Assembly: GCA_015485495.1 (NCBI GenBank)
Contig: WFTL01000081.1
Coordinates: 1-44,473, forward strand
Source of the DNA: Planctomycetaceae bacterium
GTDB lineage: Bacteria > Planctomycetota > Planctomycetia > Planctomycetales > Planctomycetaceae
Direction of reading: 5' to 3'
Length of the DNA: 44,473 nt
Notes under the pieces: generated by a model
What the model was told of the DNA's origin: nothing
Database searches by the model: none
The model's input: the letters and a program-made list of their open reading frames with translations, nothing else
Position numbers and translations under genes: made by a program
Shown: positions 16,045 through 36,074 of the stretch, one piece after another
How positions within the stretch are numbered: position 1 is the stretch's first letter
How the letters are laid out: every line of letters begins with the position of its first letter

Positions 16045-16953
16045 ATGACGGGTGACGGCCCCGTGGCATGGCTGAACGGACATGTGCTGCCGGCTGCCGA
16101 CGCCCGCCTTCCGGTTCAGGACCTGGGAATTGTCGGCGGAATCAGCGTGGCGGACATGGCCCGCACGTACGGTCATCGGCCGTTCCGCATGGAACAGCAC
16201 GTCGAACGCCTGCTCGCTTCCTGCCGGGAACTGGGATTTCCGCCGGTTCGTCCGAAACAGGACCTTCTGGACGCGGCCGAAACCATCGCCGAACACAACG
16301 CCCGGAATCTGCCGGAAGGCGATGATCTGGGAATCGTGTGGTTTGTCACGGCCGGACTCAATCCCACCTACACGGGCGATGCCGGTCTGTCCGAATCGAC
16401 CGTCTGTGTTCACACGTTCCGGCTCCCGCTGGCCCGCTGGAAACCGGCCGTGGATTCGGGAGTCGTTCTGACAATCCCCGAACAGAAACATCTCCCGGAA
16501 GAATCGTTTCCGGTTCGGCACAAGACGCGCAGCCGCATCCACTGGTGGCTGGCGGATCGCCAGGCGGCCGCCGGACGCCCCGGCTCCCGCGCTCTGCTGC
16601 TGGACGAACAGGGCCGCATGACCGAAACGGCCACCGCCTGCTTTTATGCCGTCCGGGACGGAACGGTCCACACGCGTCTGTCGGGAGTCCTGAACAGCAT
16701 CACACGCCGCATTGTGCGGGAACTGTGCGCCGACCTGGACATCCCCTTTCAGTTCAGTGATCCTGATGTGGCGTTTTTGAGGCAGTGTGAGGAAGCGTTT
16801 CTGTCGTCCACCCCCTGTGGCCTGCTGCCGGTCGCATCGATCGACGAACAGCATCTGGCCGGACCGGACGGCCCGGTTCTGAAGCGTCTGCAGGCCGCCT
16901 GGACACAGCTCACAGGAATCGACACGTTCGCTCAGATTCGGGAAGCGCGATGA
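16045..16953 (+). CDS. Class IV PLP aminotransferase (IlvE/PabC fold)
   Basis: A 302-residue fold-type IV PLP enzyme. The N-terminus has the family pattern WLNGHVLPAADARLPVQDLG. Lys160, in PVRHKTRSR, is the expected Schiff-base lysine. Glu194 in MTETATACFY sits where the PLP pyridine-nitrogen Glu lies, and LSGVLNSITRR forms the phosphate-binding turn. Substrate cannot be assigned: branched-chain amino acids (IlvE), aminodeoxychorismate (PabC) and D-amino acids all use this fold. The usual Asn after Glu194 is replaced (TATACF), which is mildly atypical. An AGGA site precedes the ATG. It overlaps the next gene by 4 bases (ATGA), so the two are translationally coupled. Confidence 0.87.
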   Translation: MTGDGPVAWLNGHVLPAADARLPVQDLGIVGGISVADMARTYGHRPFRMEQHVERLLASCRELGFPPVRPKQDLLDAAETIAEHNARNLPEGDDLGIVWFVTAGLNPTYTGDAGLSESTVCVHTFRLPLARWKPAVDSGVVLTIPEQKHLPEESFPVRHKTRSRIHWWLADRQAAAGRPGSRALLLDEQGRMTETATACFYAVRDGTVHTRLSGVLNSITRRIVRELCADLDIPFQFSDPDVAFLRQCEEAFLSSTPCGLLPVASIDEQHLAGPDGPVLKRLQAAWTQLTGIDTFAQIREAR

Positions 16954-18047
16954 CGGATTTCTGCGTCTGCACGGTTCCGCTGAAGAACACACCGCGCCGC
17001 ATCGCGGTGCGGACCGGTGTTCCGCCCGCGGCCTTCATCCTCACAGCCGTTCTGCTGTCGACCGGATTGTCTCCGGCTGCGGACGATGAACTGGAACGAC
17101 AGATCGACGCATCGATTGCCGCAGCGCTGCCATGGCTGGCAGACGCGCAGCAGCCGTCCGGGGCCTGGACACTGGAACACTCGTCTCAGGAATCCACCGC
17201 CATCACATCCCTGGCCGTGCTGGCTTTCCTGGCGGCCGGACAGGTGCCGGACGAAGGCCCGTGGGGCGATCATGTGACGCGCGGGGTCGACTGGGTGCTG
17301 CAGCAGCAGCGGGAAGACGGACTGCTGCAGGACATTTTCGGACACGGCCCCATGTACGGTCACGGAATTTCGACACTGATGCTGGCAGAAGTGTCGGGAA
17401 TGCTGCCGGAAGACCGGGAACCGGCCTGCCGCCGCGTTCTGGAACGCGCCGTACGGCTGATTATCGACGCTCAGAATCAGCCGCGCAGTCCGGCGGCGGA
17501 CGGCGGCTGGCGATACCAGCCGACCAGCCGCGATTCGGATCTGAGCGTGACGGCGTGGCAGCTTCTGGCACTGCGGGCTGCCCGCGATATCGGATGCGAT
17601 GTGCCTGTGGAAAACATCGACCGGGCCACGGCCTACATTCGTCGTCTGAGTGTGCCTGGGGGCGGCTTCGGATATGTTTCGCCGCGCGGCACGACGGCCA
17701 CACGGGCCGGCACCGGAATCGTCGCTCTGGAAGTCTGCGGAGAACACCGGTCGCGCATCACGCTCGCGGCAGCCCGGTACCTGCAGCAGAATCCGCTGAC
17801 TCCGGACGAAGGCTACTTCTACTACGGTGCGTACTACTGTACGGTGGGGATGTACAAAACAGGCGGTGACGAATGGATGCGGATTCGTCCGGCGCTGTAT
17901 TCCACCATTCTGAATGCTCAGCAGCCGGGCGGATTCTGGGAACCCCGCGGCGGCAGCGAATCGGCGGCCGGACGGGTTTACGCCACGTCGCTCAGCCTGC
18001 TGGCTTTGTCTGTGGAATACGCCTTTCTGCCGATTTATCAGCGCTGA
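16950..18047 (+). CDS. Exported prenyltransferase/squalene-oxidase-repeat (alpha/alpha toroid) protein
   Basis: A 365-residue protein. Residues about 25-45 form a signal or anchor segment (FILTAVLLSTGLSP). The rest consists of repeats of the squalene-cyclase/prenyltransferase type: LADAQQPSGAWTLE, LQQQREDGLLQD, GGWRYQPTSRDSDLS, GGGFGYVSPRG and QQPGGFWEPRGG. These build an alpha/alpha barrel. The acid motif of true squalene-hopene cyclases (DXDD) is not apparent, so a non-cyclase envelope role is more likely. It overlaps the aminotransferase by 4 bases and precedes a Cys-rich protein by 23 bases, giving a probable three-gene unit. A larger protein with the same fold is encoded at 32863-35241. 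Confidence 0.85.
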   Translation: MTDFCVCTVPLKNTPRRIAVRTGVPPAAFILTAVLLSTGLSPAADDELERQIDASIAAALPWLADAQQPSGAWTLEHSSQESTAITSLAVLAFLAAGQVPDEGPWGDHVTRGVDWVLQQQREDGLLQDIFGHGPMYGHGISTLMLAEVSGMLPEDREPACRRVLERAVRLIIDAQNQPRSPAADGGWRYQPTSRDSDLSVTAWQLLALRAARDIGCDVPVENIDRATAYIRRLSVPGGGFGYVSPRGTTATRAGTGIVALEVCGEHRSRITLAAARYLQQNPLTPDEGYFYYGAYYCTVGMYKTGGDEWMRIRPALYSTILNAQQPGGFWEPRGGSESAAGRVYATSLSLLALSVEYAFLPIYQR

Positions 18048-31373: not shown

Positions 31374-32852
31374 ATGGCTTCTACCGCTCGTCACAGTCTG
31401 CCTGCCGGGTTCCACATGGATCCCCGATTCGGGGCCGTGTACGCGTCTCCGCCTGCCGGCGCCGACGATCTGACGGCCATTCGGGGAATCGGAACGCAGG
31501 AAGCAGCGCGGCTGAACCATCTGGGGATCTACTACATCGATCAGATCGCCCTGTGGACCGATGCCCAGGTCGTTGCCGTGGCCGATGCGGTCGGTGTGTC
31601 GGCGGCCGCCATTTTTCGGGACCGCTGGGTGGAACAGGCCAGGCTGCTGATCACGCCGGATCCACAGCCTGCGGCTGCAGCCGTCGCGGTTCCGTACCGT
31701 CCGAAGCAGGATGCACCGCCGGCACCAGGGACCCGCACCATTGCCGTTCTGGTCACGGCGCTTCTGATCGGCTGCTTCATTGTCACGTGGCTGAACCGCC
31801 ATTCTCAGCCCGCCCTGACAGGCGTTCTGGCGGCCGACATCACATCGCTGCGGGTGCCGGCCGATTCCCGGCTGCTGGCCTGCTATGTGTCCCCCGGTGA
31901 CGAAGTCTTCACCGGTGAAACCCTGCTCACTCTGGAAAAATCAGAACACCTGGAACAGATCGCCCGTCAGACGCGGCGGGTCGAAGAACTCCGGAGGGCT
32001 CTGAAACAGGCGGAACTCCAGGCAGAACTCGATCTGGAATGGCGGCAGTACGAACTGAACCAGGAACTGTCGGAATCTCAGGCCCAGGCCCGGCTGTTCG
32101 GCATCCTGCAGCCATTGTGTGCAGCCGGTCCCCAGACGACAGAAGCGCCGCACGCCCTGCGGACCGTGGCCCGTCCCCGGTCTCTGCCGGAACATCCGGC
32201 CGCTCCGCCCCGATCGCTGCTGTTCATCAGCGGGGCCACGGGGACCAGCAACCTGAACGGTCTGAAGCCGATTCCGCCGGATGAGCGGGCACCGGAAACG
32301 GCGACGGACGACCTTTCGGAATCTGAGGTTTCCGGACCGATTGCTGAGCTGCTTCAGATGGAAGTGCAGCGCCACGCGGCGCGTCTGGAACAACTGGAAC
32401 AGATGCGCCGCCGGCTGCCGGAACATGTGCGCCTGGCCGCCGGCGTGGTGGCTCTGAAAACCCGTTATGAACAGGAAGCCGCCCGGCTGACCGAAATGGA
32501 GAGTCTGAGCCGGGAAACGGCCGTACTCTGTCCCGGATACGGCCGCATCAGCCAGGTGCGGTACCGACCGGGCGATCGCATGGTCTACGGAGAAGTGATG
32601 CTCCGCATTCTGCACACCGACCGGCGCTGTGTTCTGGTAGATGTTCCTTCAGAACGCGCCGGAGAACTGCAGCCGGGAACAGCCGTTCAGGTTCTGTTTC
32701 CCGGTCAGGATGCCTGCACGGGGACCGTGACCGAACTGCCCACGGCCGACAGCACGTCCACAGCCACCGCCGTGACCGTGCGGGTGGAATCGGACGAAGC
32801 CGACTGGCCGGACGTGCCCATCGGCAGCCGGACTCACATTCGCCTGCCCTGA
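31374..32852 (+). CDS. Helix-hairpin-helix / HlyD-type membrane-fusion adaptor fusion
   Basis: A 492-residue inner-membrane protein. Residues about 30-92 form a helix-hairpin-helix domain of the 'DDL..I.GIG...A..LN.LGIY..DQIA.WT' type, seen in predicted nucleic-acid-binding proteins. A Pro/Ala linker and one membrane helix (122-140, IAVLVTALLIGCFIVTWL) follow. The rest is HlyD-like: a lipoyl/barrel half (VPADSRLLACYVSPGDEVFTGETLLTLE), a long alpha-hairpin with coiled-coil character (about 190-235 and 330-395), a second lipoyl half (CPGYGRISQVRYRPGDRMVYGEVMLRIL) and a beta-barrel tail. The cytoplasmic HhH thus sits in one chain with an extracytoplasmic adaptor. No ABC or RND pump genes are next to it. 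It is convergent with the toroid gene at 32863. Confidence 0.82.
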   Translation: MASTARHSLPAGFHMDPRFGAVYASPPAGADDLTAIRGIGTQEAARLNHLGIYYIDQIALWTDAQVVAVADAVGVSAAAIFRDRWVEQARLLITPDPQPAAAAVAVPYRPKQDAPPAPGTRTIAVLVTALLIGCFIVTWLNRHSQPALTGVLAADITSLRVPADSRLLACYVSPGDEVFTGETLLTLEKSEHLEQIARQTRRVEELRRALKQAELQAELDLEWRQYELNQELSESQAQARLFGILQPLCAAGPQTTEAPHALRTVARPRSLPEHPAAPPRSLLFISGATGTSNLNGLKPIPPDERAPETATDDLSESEVSGPIAELLQMEVQRHAARLEQLEQMRRRLPEHVRLAAGVVALKTRYEQEAARLTEMESLSRETAVLCPGYGRISQVRYRPGDRMVYGEVMLRILHTDRRCVLVDVPSERAGELQPGTAVQVLFPGQDACTGTVTELPTADSTSTATAVTVRVESDEADWPDVPIGSRTHIRLP

Positions 32853-32862
32853 ACGCGGTTCG

Positions 32863-35241
32863 TCATTCCGGATCACTCATTCGATACAGCGGCAGCAGAC
32901 GGTAATAGACTTCCAGAGTGAGCGTGGCCAGAGCGGTGGAATACAGGCGGCCGCCGTAACGTCCCCAGGGCCCGTTCGGATCCCAGCTTCCCGCCAGCGG
33001 GCCGGAAGCGACCTGCTCGGCAATCAGCGTGTCGCGCACGGCCGCGTTCCATTCGTCCCAGGCCGGTCCGCCGAACTGGTACATGGCCAGGGTGCCGTAG
33101 TACCAGTAGTACAGATTCAGTTCAGACAGCCGCGGCAGATGATCGAGCAGGTAACGGACGGATTCTCTGCTGCGTGCCGTATCCCGTCGGAATCCCAGCA
33201 TCTGCTGACAGAACAGAGCTTCCGCCGTCATGGCCGGAGTGACCGGTTCCCCCGGACGGTAGCCGAACAGTCCGCCCCGCGTTCCCTGGCGGACACTGCT
33301 GATGAACCGAAACATCCGATCTTTGGAAGCCCGCGGAATTCGGACCCCTGCGATTTCCGCGCTTTTCAGGGACATCAGCTGCCACCCGAACATACTCACA
33401 TCTCCCGCCTGACCGCGGGCATATCGCCAGCCGCCACCTTCACTCTGCTGCCCGATCGTGAAGCGCACGGCACTGAGCAGGGCGGTGCGCAGACGCAGTT
33501 CGTCCACGCGCCGCAGCGACCAGGCATGAGCGTCGGCCAGAGCCGTCGCGGACAGCATCCACAGACGGTTCCGGACCAGGACCGCCTGCCCGGTGGACAC
33601 GCTGCCGCCGGGAACCGCGGCGGCGATCGTGACCGCCGGCGCCAGCAGGTCGGGATCCACAATGGGATCCGGCACGGCTTCCTCCTGCATTCCCAGAGCT
33701 TCGGCCAGGGCATACGTGGCCATGGCATGGCAGTACATCCGCGCGTACTTGCGGGCCGGTCCGGCCAGACTGCCGTCATCGGCCTGCTGGCGGATGATCC
33801 AGTCCAGGGCCCGATCCACCTGAATCGCATAACGGCCCTGTTCGTGCGTGTATCCGGCGCCCAGGAATGCCAGCGTGACCAGAGCCGTGATTCCCGTGTC
33901 CGCATCGCGGCCGGAATAATCCCGGTCGACCTTCAGTTCATCGATTTTCACCAGCCCGGCTCCGTGAGCGCTGGCGTCCCAGCGCCCATCCGGAAGCTGC
34001 TGGCGCGACAGCCAGGCCAGACTGCGTTCCACCGTGGCTTCGGACCGTTCCGTCCCGCCGAACCGATACACCGCCTCCCGTCGGTATTCCCGGCTGCGCA
34101 GACGGTATGCGGCCGGCTGCCGATCGCGGCGGCGAATCCGAATTTCTTCCGGCAGCGTCAGATCGGCTTCCAGCCGTGCGGCGCCGTGGCGGTCCGGGAC
34201 CCGCATCCCGACCCGAACGTCTTCGTAGCCGGACGACAGCGAAAGGGGCGTCCGTGATTCCGAAGATGTCATCCGGGACGGACGGAGCCGATCCGGTGCC
34301 GGCCGACGCGACCGACCGGCCCGGGGCAGACTGCGGGCAAGGGACGCGGCCGGGCCTGTCGGCCCGGCCGCCGGTTCCGATCCGGCTTCGGATGACTCGA
34401 CCGGTTCCGATGCGGACACCGGAGCCGACCGGCGGCGGATGTCTTCATCGAACTGCGGATCCCGGACCGGCCGCGCCGACCGGACATCGCTGACAGCCAG
34501 ATCCGGACCGACCGATTCCAGCTCCACCCGCGGATCGATCCGTTCCATCCGCCCGGCCGTCTCCGGACGTGCCGGAACGGACGGATCTTTTTCCGGCCGC
34601 CGGATCTGCGAAGCCATGCGCTGTGCCGGAACCTCGGGACCATCGCGGCCGTGATGTTCGTGCCGGATATCCAGGTCTGCGGCCGGGTCCTGAGCGGCCG
34701 ATTCGCGGGGTTCCGGCAGATCGGTGTCTTCCGGGAAATCGGACGTCGGTTCCTGACGGTCCAGAAACTGGTCAGCTTCCGGCAGGTCAGCCTGCAGCGC
34801 CGGCGGCCGTTCCGCCTGGCGCTGCGGCGGCGGGGCGGCCGTCAGGGTCCGGGCCGGCGGCGGCAGACGGTCCAGGTCGATTTCCATCCGTGTGGGTTCT
34901 TCCGGAACAGGCGTGTTGCCGGATTCGCGAAACGTCAGCTCCTCGTCGCTCTGCACGAGCACTTCTGTCAGCACCTGCGCCGGTTCGAACACCTTTCGCG
35001 GCCTGCGGGCCGGCAGCGGTTCGAAGACTTCCAGTCCCAGCAGGCAGACGCTGTGCACGAGCAGCGATGCGATCAGCGACTTGATGGCGATGTTGCGGTC
35101 TCCCCACCGCGTGACGAGCATCGTGACCAGATGGATGAGCGATGCGGCCATGGCCAGCAGCAGCAGCAGCACGATGACGTCATCCCCGCTCAGGGGACGT
35201 CCGTACCAGAGTCTGCGGAGGACAGGCTGCACCACCGTCAT
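32863..35241 (-). CDS. Membrane-anchored TonB-like linker + alpha/alpha toroid fusion
   Basis: A 792-residue protein. Two N-terminal membrane helices (about 22-43, VIVLLLLLAMAASLIHLV; about 53-70, SLIASLLVHSVCLLGLEV) precede a Pro/Glu/Arg-rich linker of about 330 residues, of the kind seen in TonB and other envelope-spanning proteins. The C-terminal half (about 410-785) consists of squalene-cyclase-type repeats: LSRQQLPDGRWDAS, IIRQQADDGSLAGP, IGQQSEGGGWRYARG, RQGTRGGLFGYRPG and ASGPLAGSWDPNGPWG. It overlaps the end of the exbD gene by 4 bases (ATGA) and is translationally coupled to it. The pairing suggests that this protein is moved or gated by ExbD, but an ExbB motor subunit is not adjacent. 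Enzymatic cyclase activity is not indicated. Confidence 0.85.
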   Translation of the reverse strand: MTVVQPVLRRLWYGRPLSGDDVIVLLLLLAMAASLIHLVTMLVTRWGDRNIAIKSLIASLLVHSVCLLGLEVFEPLPARRPRKVFEPAQVLTEVLVQSDEELTFRESGNTPVPEEPTRMEIDLDRLPPPARTLTAAPPPQRQAERPPALQADLPEADQFLDRQEPTSDFPEDTDLPEPRESAAQDPAADLDIRHEHHGRDGPEVPAQRMASQIRRPEKDPSVPARPETAGRMERIDPRVELESVGPDLAVSDVRSARPVRDPQFDEDIRRRSAPVSASEPVESSEAGSEPAAGPTGPAASLARSLPRAGRSRRPAPDRLRPSRMTSSESRTPLSLSSGYEDVRVGMRVPDRHGAARLEADLTLPEEIRIRRRDRQPAAYRLRSREYRREAVYRFGGTERSEATVERSLAWLSRQQLPDGRWDASAHGAGLVKIDELKVDRDYSGRDADTGITALVTLAFLGAGYTHEQGRYAIQVDRALDWIIRQQADDGSLAGPARKYARMYCHAMATYALAEALGMQEEAVPDPIVDPDLLAPAVTIAAAVPGGSVSTGQAVLVRNRLWMLSATALADAHAWSLRRVDELRLRTALLSAVRFTIGQQSEGGGWRYARGQAGDVSMFGWQLMSLKSAEIAGVRIPRASKDRMFRFISSVRQGTRGGLFGYRPGEPVTPAMTAEALFCQQMLGFRRDTARSRESVRYLLDHLPRLSELNLYYWYYGTLAMYQFGGPAWDEWNAAVRDTLIAEQVASGPLAGSWDPNGPWGRYGGRLYSTALATLTLEVYYRLLPLYRMSDPE

Positions 35242-35660
35242 GACGATTCATCCTGAACCGGACGGAAGGCCAGCGAAAAGCGGTGAATCCGCGCCTGATG
35301 ACACACGCTCATCACATCGATGATCGACTGATACAGCGACTGTCCGTCGCCGCGAATGAGGACGGTCTGCTGAGCGAATGTGCGGCGGGCATTTTCCAGA
35401 CGATCTTTGAGTTCAGCCAGAGTCAGCTCAGTGGATCCGATCGTGATGCGTCCGGAGCGTGTCACATTGACCACGATCGGATCCGGAGCCCGGGACATGG
35501 GAGCCACCGCGGGAGCCTGCGGCATCTCGATGTCGAACTGCTGTTCGATTTCGCTGAATCTCGTCCCCACCATGAAAAAGATGATCAGCAGGAACACGAT
35601 GTCGATCATCGGGGTGAGATTGAGGGCCGGTTCTTCCAGTGATTCCGTCCGCAGAGGCAT
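35238..35660 (-). CDS. exbD: ExbD/TolR-family proton-motive-force transducer
   Basis: A 140-residue protein. One membrane helix (about 21-40) carries the ion-pathway aspartate in NLTPMIDIVFLLIIFFM. The extracytoplasmic ExbD/TolR domain follows, with SRAPDPIVVNVTRSGRITIG, then VLIRGDGQSLYQSIIDVMSVCH. The start at 35660 is decided by a perfect GGAGGT ribosome site and matches the family length of about 140; the open frame extends 48 codons further upstream but without support. ExbD normally works with ExbB in a 5:2 complex that uses the proton gradient to drive TonB-type partners. Here it is followed, with a 4-base overlap, by a TonB-like linker/toroid gene. Confidence 0.92.
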   Translation of the reverse strand: MPLRTESLEEPALNLTPMIDIVFLLIIFFMVGTRFSEIEQQFDIEMPQAPAVAPMSRAPDPIVVNVTRSGRITIGSTELTLAELKDRLENARRTFAQQTVLIRGDGQSLYQSIIDVMSVCHQARIHRFSLAFRPVQDESS

Positions 35661-36074
35661 GGCGGCGACCTCCGATTTCATGCTCGAACACCACCGGAAC
35701 CGCTCAGGCGGCCCGGAGCAGCCTGGCCGCATTGTATGCGCCCGGAGCTGCGGCGCAGACCCCGGTTTGAACCGATTTCCGACCGCGGCAGGGACCGCCC
35801 GCACTCACCCGAACGCCCCGCGGGGCGTCCGATTGTTCCGGATCTGACGCGCCTGACGGCTCTGCGGACGGCAGCAAAGTCTGGCGGAACCCTCTGTTCC
35901 GCGTGCCTGCAGAACGGAACCCGGGGAAATGGGCCGCGTTGCCGATTCCCGGCTGTTCCCCCGTTTTCACGTGCTAGGGTTGCACCGAATTCCTCAGAAC
36001 TCCGTCCGGAAGCATCCGCGGCAGGAGTCTGTTCGCGACACGCAGATGATCCCAGAACCAGCGGCGAGGTCCCG
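35661..36074. other. Divergent gap between exbD and the following plus-strand gene
   Basis: About 410 bases. Both long frames that cross the gap are extensions of the flanking genes and lack similarity. There is no exbB-like frame here. No convincing promoter was found. Confidence 0.4.
35668..35673 (-). promoter_or_regulatory. Ribosome binding site deciding the exbD start
   Basis: GGAGGT on the minus strand stands 7 bases before the ATG at 35660. It is one of the strongest ribosome sites in the window and argues against the longer upstream frame. Confidence 0.75.

Follow-up and report, generated by a model that had tools for sequence, protein, structure and literature searches.

A toroid-headed protein encoded with ExbD: a candidate TonB/TolA-like force transducer in planctomycete envelopes

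The force transducers TonB and TolA, which belong to the ExbBD-TonB and TolQR-TolA systems, are built on one plan: an ExbD-type partner, a membrane helix bearing S-x3-H(-x6-L), a Pro-rich disordered linker and a small globular head at the C-terminus. In full, the motif of the helix is Ser-x3-His-x6-Leu-x3-Ser (SHLS); in the part of Celia et al. (PMC12215075) that deals with it, TonB Ser16 and His20 touch ExbB, and the Leu and final Ser are described as less conserved in Ton. Other heads have also been described. The relevant sections of Williams-Jones et al. (2025; PMC12204202) report vWA-headed transducers with a TonB-like SHLS helix and a disordered linker, also in Planctomycetes, and operons for them that hold a TPR gene, a TolQ-like gene and two TolR-like genes. 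Here we describe a gene pair, an exbD-like gene and the gene of an alpha/alpha-toroid protein, on contig WFTL01000081.1 of a Planctomycetaceae bacterium (GCA_015485495.1). The window, meaning the whole stretch of DNA analysed, is this entire contig (44473 bases; C81 of the source genome, labelled G000). It is likely, in our judgement, that the toroid protein is a proton-driven periplasmic force transducer with a TonB/TolA-like anchor and linker and with the toroid as its working end.

An exbD gene overlapping the gene of a toroid-headed protein

The exbD-like gene (35238..35660; minus strand, like all features of the pair) encodes 140 amino acids (aa) with one membrane helix and matches PF02472 at E 9.4e-28 (97.3 bits against a curated cut-off of 25.4; E 2.9e-27 in a search of its own genome). 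The conserved membrane Asp of ExbD is found in the translated segment LTPMIDIVFLL, with its codon at 35601-35603, and the ribosome-binding site GGAGG (35669..35673) can be read 8 nucleotides (nt) ahead of the ATG at 35660. The letters ATGA at 35238-35241 join the TGA of exbD to the ATG of the toroid gene in a 4-base overlap. A first-pass annotation of the window had recognised this ExbD with its membrane Asp and ribosome site, as well as its overlap with a 792-residue protein having two membrane helices and a toroid, and these points are borne out by the profile match, the sequence and the AlphaFold model.

The toroid gene (32863..35241), established by translation and by orthologues in relatives, encodes 792 aa, for which a full-length, single-chain AlphaFold model was made from an input alignment of 35 sequences. 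Helix 1 (residues 19-44; 35110..35187) is a modelled helix of hydrophobic sequence. Helix 2 (residues 51-72; 35026..35091), likewise modelled, is TonB/TolA-like, and its Ser59 and His63 are invariant in alignment A1 of the relatives. These two residues form the putative motor-binding motif S59-x3-H63 (35053..35067; as defined in the part of PMC12215075 cited above), which continues as x6-L70. Beyond helix 2, a conserved short segment (residues 89-112; 34906..34977; A1 consensus GNxPVW) is a weak candidate for a motor box, and a disordered linker rich in Pro, Glu and Arg covers residues 79-371 (34129..35007), with a predicted local distance difference test score (pLDDT) below 50 over most of its length. 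The first-pass annotation had given the linker 330 residues; its disordered, Pro/Glu-rich character stands, and its length is about 300 residues by pLDDT.

The alpha/alpha toroid (residues 384-785; 32887..34092) has a pLDDT mostly above 90 in the full-length model, except around residues 524-545, and folds alone, from the 99-sequence alignment A2, with a mean pLDDT of 92.4 and a predicted TM-score of 0.90. Among solved structures, squalene-hopene cyclase (2sqc) resembles it most (Z 27.5, root-mean-square deviation 3.0, 291 residues aligned, 19% identity), and further structural matches include sugar epimerases and glycoside hydrolases at Z 21-23. Foldseek returned 11 matches at 0.001 or better against the pdb, and no match at E 0.001 or better was found in a viral structure library. 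All Pfam and NCBIfam matches to the toroid are below their cut-offs (TIGR01507, for example, scores 19.7 bits on the protein against a required 431.1), and the Pfam scan of the protein found no vWA family. The toroid fold and QW-like repeats are shared with squalene-hopene cyclase and the other type II terpene cyclases; unlike these, the toroid of the window is anchored by a TonB-like helix and a linker, and the DxDD motif is not conserved.

In comparison with TonB and TolA, the head is an approximately 400-residue toroid in place of a small domain, an extra membrane helix precedes the motor helix, and in many relatives a TPR gene heads the operon. The proposed replacement of the TonB C-terminal domain by a toroid was confirmed in so far as no PF03544 (TonB_C) or PF13103 (TonB_2) match was found in the source genome. 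The toroid protein resembles the vWA transducers, as presented in the sections of PMC12204202 cited, in joining a TonB-like helix and a disordered linker to a head that is not of the TonB type, and differs in the head itself, in its extra first helix and in usually having one ExbD instead of a TolR-like pair; the combination of TPR, ExbB and ExbD, found in 37 of 108 relatives, is split in the source genome. The text of PMC12204202 uses neither 'toroid' nor 'squalene', and no paper on a toroid-headed transducer was found in the open literature searched.

Conservation of the motor helix and of the ExbD-toroid pair

Searches with the full protein covered 59 genomes, the source genome included, and all 59 contain matches to it, 5 to 20 per genome. 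Loci were taken as stretches at 40 + 20 places, together with the best 80 of 560 loci in a wider contig collection, and the 132 loci used gave 120 distinct toroid open reading frames (ORFs); short paralogues are under-represented in this set because mostly long frames were selected (class-level places were picked for frames of at least 670 aa) and best matches were taken. A membrane His lies ahead of the toroid in 112 of the 120 frames, 110 of them as S-x3-H and 2 as A-x3-H, compared with a background, counted under slightly different criteria, of 7 S-x3-H windows among 395 membrane windows from unrelated genes nearby. Among the 8 frames without a membrane His, 6 are truncated by the end of the locus and the other 2 are short (455 and 489 aa). 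The invariance of Ser and His in A1 is partly circular because A1 was chosen through an S-x3-H filter, which excluded ORFs of L051 and L070 that carry S-x3-H nonetheless. As judged by eye, 13 uncut short toroid relatives (357-432 aa; 9 genomes) have no S-x3-H in a hydrophobic stretch, indicating that the motif is not tied to the toroid fold. In the same 9-genome set, 11 of the 16 ORFs of at least 520 aa have it, and 2 of the 5 misses are cut at the locus edge.

Neighbours were counted for the 108 of the 112 membrane-His ORFs that have at least 700 nt of upstream sequence, with TPR and ExbB matches required to reach 100 bits, distance limits applied, and ExbD required on the same strand. On this basis ExbD lies upstream of 92 of the 108 long toroid genes. 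In 89 cases it is within 450 nt of the codon for the motif Ser, and in the other three, which are long propeller forms (L191, L200, L220), it is 1173-1206 nt upstream; the ExbD of L083, counted among the 92, is a weak profile match of 36 bits. Upstream of the 108 genes are ExbD alone (49), TPR, ExbB and ExbD (37), ExbB and ExbD (6), TPR and ExbB (7) or none of them (9); the loci have flanks of only 5-9 kb and stop at contig ends, so that an undetected TPR or ExbB may simply lie outside them. The order TPR, ExbB, ExbD, toroid is unchanged in all 37 full sets. The idea that homologous exbD-toroid pairs in related planctomycetes would have ExbB/MotA genes beside them thus holds for the 37 full sets and the 6 loci with ExbB and ExbD, and the pair is a conserved neighbourhood. 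The converse possibility raised with it, that toroid proteins occur widely without ExbD, proved half true: shorter relatives occur without it, and none was detected at 16 of the 108 long genes, including 7 that have TPR and ExbB.

The carriers are Planctomycetota, with Fuerstiella among the closest and Gimesia, Schlesneria and Planctomicrobium as further examples; Thermoguttaceae, Pirellulales, Isosphaeraceae and Phycisphaerales metagenome-assembled genomes (MAGs) also have the gene, as do a few labelled just 'bacterium' and one MAG labelled Verrucomicrobia (L209). Residues 1-118 alone, without the toroid, have matches at E <= 0.001 in 133 of 150 genomes of the order; of the 17 in which none was found, G005, G025 and G031 do have the toroid gene.

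Variants of the arrangement were also seen. Seven loci (L084, L123, L126, L127, L215, L221, L223) contain TPR-ExbB-toroid runs in which no ExbD was found; they may represent either a motor minus its axle or a motor with an unrecognised axle. L062 (5087-9160) holds a 1358-aa toroid transducer frame with S-x3-H near its start, which makes its linker unusually long. In L136 (2282-8954), ExbB, ExbD and a second ExbD are followed by one further ORF and then by a tandem pair of toroid proteins (~550 aa, single S-x3-H helix). These perhaps form a shorter, second class of such transducers, and contig C58 of the source genome carries a relative (L131).

Candidate ExbB and TPR partners

As the first-pass annotation had observed, there is no ExbB within the window. 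This absence is uninformative by itself, since the contig ends where the window ends, and the source genome has 7 ExbD and 8 MotA/ExbB matches, among them an ExbB on contig C143. ExbBs directly before ExbD-toroid in five relatives (L058, L077, L079, L081, L082) are closest to this C143 type, at 1e-63 to 1e-83, compared with 6e-26 to 8e-29 for the ExbB of contig C132; the ExbB of L084 scores 2e-25 and 9e-08, respectively. A C143-type ExbB is therefore most likely the partner of the ExbD-toroid pair in the window, as judged from sequence kinship, which is not in itself proof of partnership. The ExbBs of C125 and C132 were rejected as candidates: the relatives' ExbBs score better to the C143 type, and C132 has two ExbDs of its own. 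On C132 (L228, 406-7313), two ORFs matching TPR models, ExbB, ExbD and ExbD form one run, with no same-strand ORF listed directly after it. Of the 59 genomes, 50 have a C143-type ExbB at E <= 1e-30. Seven of the 9 genomes without it (G038, G039, G043, G047, G051, G053, G056) list only toroid frames of at most 613 aa, and the remaining two, G045 and G054, lack it yet have longer toroid frames, G054 with its own ExbB-ExbD-toroid run.

The TPR protein encoded upstream of ExbB has ~1000-1160 aa and a signal-like start. Matches to it at E <= 1e-20 occur in 24 of 30 genomes, and it is the only widely shared extra neighbour cluster, present at 11 of 52 loci (next best, 4). TPR and the C143-type ExbB lie side by side in 10 of 19 same-family genomes (G006, G007, G009, G010, G011, G013-G017), and this adjacency was read directly in L227, L231 and L232 (G013, G009 and G007). 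In G001 and G002, the two are on one contig, ~16 kb apart.

Proposed mechanism and competing explanations

The first-pass annotation had suggested that the toroid may be the moved or energised element. The upstream ExbD, the full operon in relatives and the S-x3-H helix support this suggestion, and the transmission of force can be pictured by analogy with TonB and TolA. The two genes of the window would encode the axle (ExbD) and the transducer (the toroid protein) of a proton-driven envelope motor, with an ExbD dimer sitting within an ExbB pentamer encoded elsewhere, most likely on C143. Helix 1 may serve as an extra anchor, and helix 2 would dock on ExbB in the manner of TonB and TolA, by means of S59-x3-H63. 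The TonB helix runs from the cytoplasm to the periplasm. If helix 2 is oriented in the same way, the linker and toroid would be periplasmic, so that the linker could span the periplasm and carry force to the toroid, the head that is pulled or turned. A periplasmic toroid fits long relatives (L137, L191, L200, L220) in which a PD40 propeller, hydrophobic helices, the S-x3-H helix, the linker and the toroid follow one another. Across the 99 diverse toroids of A2, 22 columns are invariant, including Tyr, Trp, Asp and Glu, and one His is nearly so. For this reason, the toroid likely contains a binding pocket, and with no conserved cyclase motif it probably acts as a head that binds and pulls.

Several observations weigh against this proposal. 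The genes of the set lie on three separate contigs in the source genome (TPR on C139, ExbB on C143, ExbD-toroid on C81), and TPR is apart from the C143-type ExbB in 9 of the 19 same-family genomes (G000-G005, G008, G012, G018). G011 has its TPR-ExbB pair on C44, yet its best toroid match, a long propeller form, comes with a separate TPR-ExbB-ExbD set. The first ExbB upstream of the toroid gene in L060 lies ~5 kb off and is of the C125 type, with its own ExbDs; the TPR match there is weak, and this locus was left out of the 37 full sets. As noted above, 16 of the 108 long toroid genes have no detected upstream ExbD, 7 having TPR-ExbB and 9 no motor gene. Within the proteins, the last place of SHLS is occupied by Glu74 instead of Ser, and the strand-like pattern of the motor box, seen in 20 of 112 frames against 15 of 403 control windows, is a weak signal. 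The Trp of Escherichia coli ExbB that is contacted by TonB and TolA is not constant in the candidate ExbBs, and the Trp38 contact was dropped as a test for ExbB on that account. In L084, a TPR-ExbB locus with no detected ExbD, the third helix of ExbB is without the usual TT. Lastly, the structure predictions are of single chains and include no protein-protein contact.

Among the long relatives, frames of 1293-1790 aa (L135, L137, L191, L200 and L220) combine a PD40 propeller with a toroid in a single chain. They lie behind ExbB-ExbD, with TPR as well in L135, L137, L191 and L200, and have the toroid in their C-terminal part and S-x3-H in L137, L191, L200 and L220; none was seen in the first 620 residues of L135. 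They differ from the protein of the window in that a first hydrophobic stretch and the propeller precede the rest of the chain. PD40 is the repeat of TolB, and the PD40-toroid loci are Tol-like parts within one operon. A TPR protein, CpoB, is likewise encoded in tol-pal operons. We lean toward a Tol-like load because of this TPR parallel, the propeller in some long relatives and the fact that no TolA/TonB-type head turned up in the genome; that the motor serves Tol-like envelope stabilisation, with the exported TPR protein as partner, is a guess. A narrower version, in which the toroid takes the place of the TolA head in an outer-membrane tethering or constriction device like Tol-Pal, is a tentative possibility that falls somewhat short of an even chance. 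In its favour are the TPR partner gene, the fusion of propeller and toroid in one chain, and a 2022 article in which the Tol-Pal system of Planctomycetes is called largely reduced in the part cited here (PMC8871954). Against it, both PD40 and TPR are common, and the main text of the essential-gene paper on Planctopirus limnophila (PMC10632474) does not name ExbB, ExbD, TolQ, TolR or TonB, so that no support for a Tol-Pal-like reading comes from that text. Put more broadly, an undescribed class of trans-envelope force transducers driven by the proton motive force may be widespread in Planctomycetota. In this class a toroid would stand in for the TonB/TolA head and, together with an exported TPR protein (in some lineages also a fused PD40 propeller), would take on the work of Tol-Pal in hosts without a recognisable TolA; we regard this proposition as evenly poised.

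An alternative load is outer-membrane import, with the protein as a TonB substitute that opens receptors recognised by the toroid. The TonB-like anchor and linker would suit this role, and no TonB-type head was found in the source genome. TonB_C proteins are present in 14 of the 59 genomes, all 14 of which also have toroid matches, and in 0 of the 3 genomes of this genus; TonB_2 was matched in 5 of 40 genomes, at genes that TonB_C also matched. This coexistence of TonB with toroid proteins argues against a substitute. The TPR gene, moreover, was the only widely shared neighbour cluster, in a survey that included no search aimed at receptors. Import is thus an unlikely, though not negligible, function.

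It is improbable that the protein is a membrane-tethered enzyme, such as a terpene cyclase, a prenyltransferase or a sugar-active alpha/alpha barrel, with ExbD as a bystander or minor regulator. The structural matches to squalene-hopene cyclase, and then to sugar epimerases and glycoside hydrolases, fit such an enzyme, and the fully or almost fully conserved Tyr, Trp, His, Asp and Glu of A2 resemble a pocket. DxDD is the catalytic motif of squalene-hopene cyclase. Its letters occur in the last 430 residues of 6 of the 120 toroid ORFs, and those of the thioester motif CGEQ in 0 of 120, so that a terpene cyclase and a thioester protein were both rejected as compatible in fold and not in motif. 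An enzyme would also leave the S-x3-H helix and the ExbD and ExbB neighbours unaccounted for. That the genes are chance neighbours, with an overlap that reflects compact genes only and a chance S-x3-H, is hardly credible: the many toroid matches per genome, some without motors, would allow it, but ExbD lies upstream of 92 of 108 genes and the membrane His far exceeds its background.

Planctomycete envelopes are unusual, and a conserved motor with a new-headed transducer would reveal a possible way of energising their outer membrane. If the toroid protein is indeed a force transducer, the toroid would be the second non-TonB head, after vWA, on ExbBD/TolQR motors, and heads would then look like exchangeable modules on one motor. 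It would also offer a role for proteins that databases recognise only through a cyclase or prenyltransferase domain scoring below threshold.

Two further genes of the window were examined. A second toroid-family ORF (418 aa; 16791-18044, plus strand), in which no S-x3-H was seen, has no adjoining ExbD, ExbB or TPR match. The HlyD-like gene at 31374-32852 (plus strand) had been put forward for a test of co-occurrence with the pair and was rejected as a partner, since its matches at the 41 loci compared were confined to the window and two genomes of the same genus (L046, L047). It is convergent to the toroid gene, and residues ~20-94 of its product match, at scores below every cut-off, a stretch that the NCBIfam models for L21, S2, NuoE and phasin have in common.

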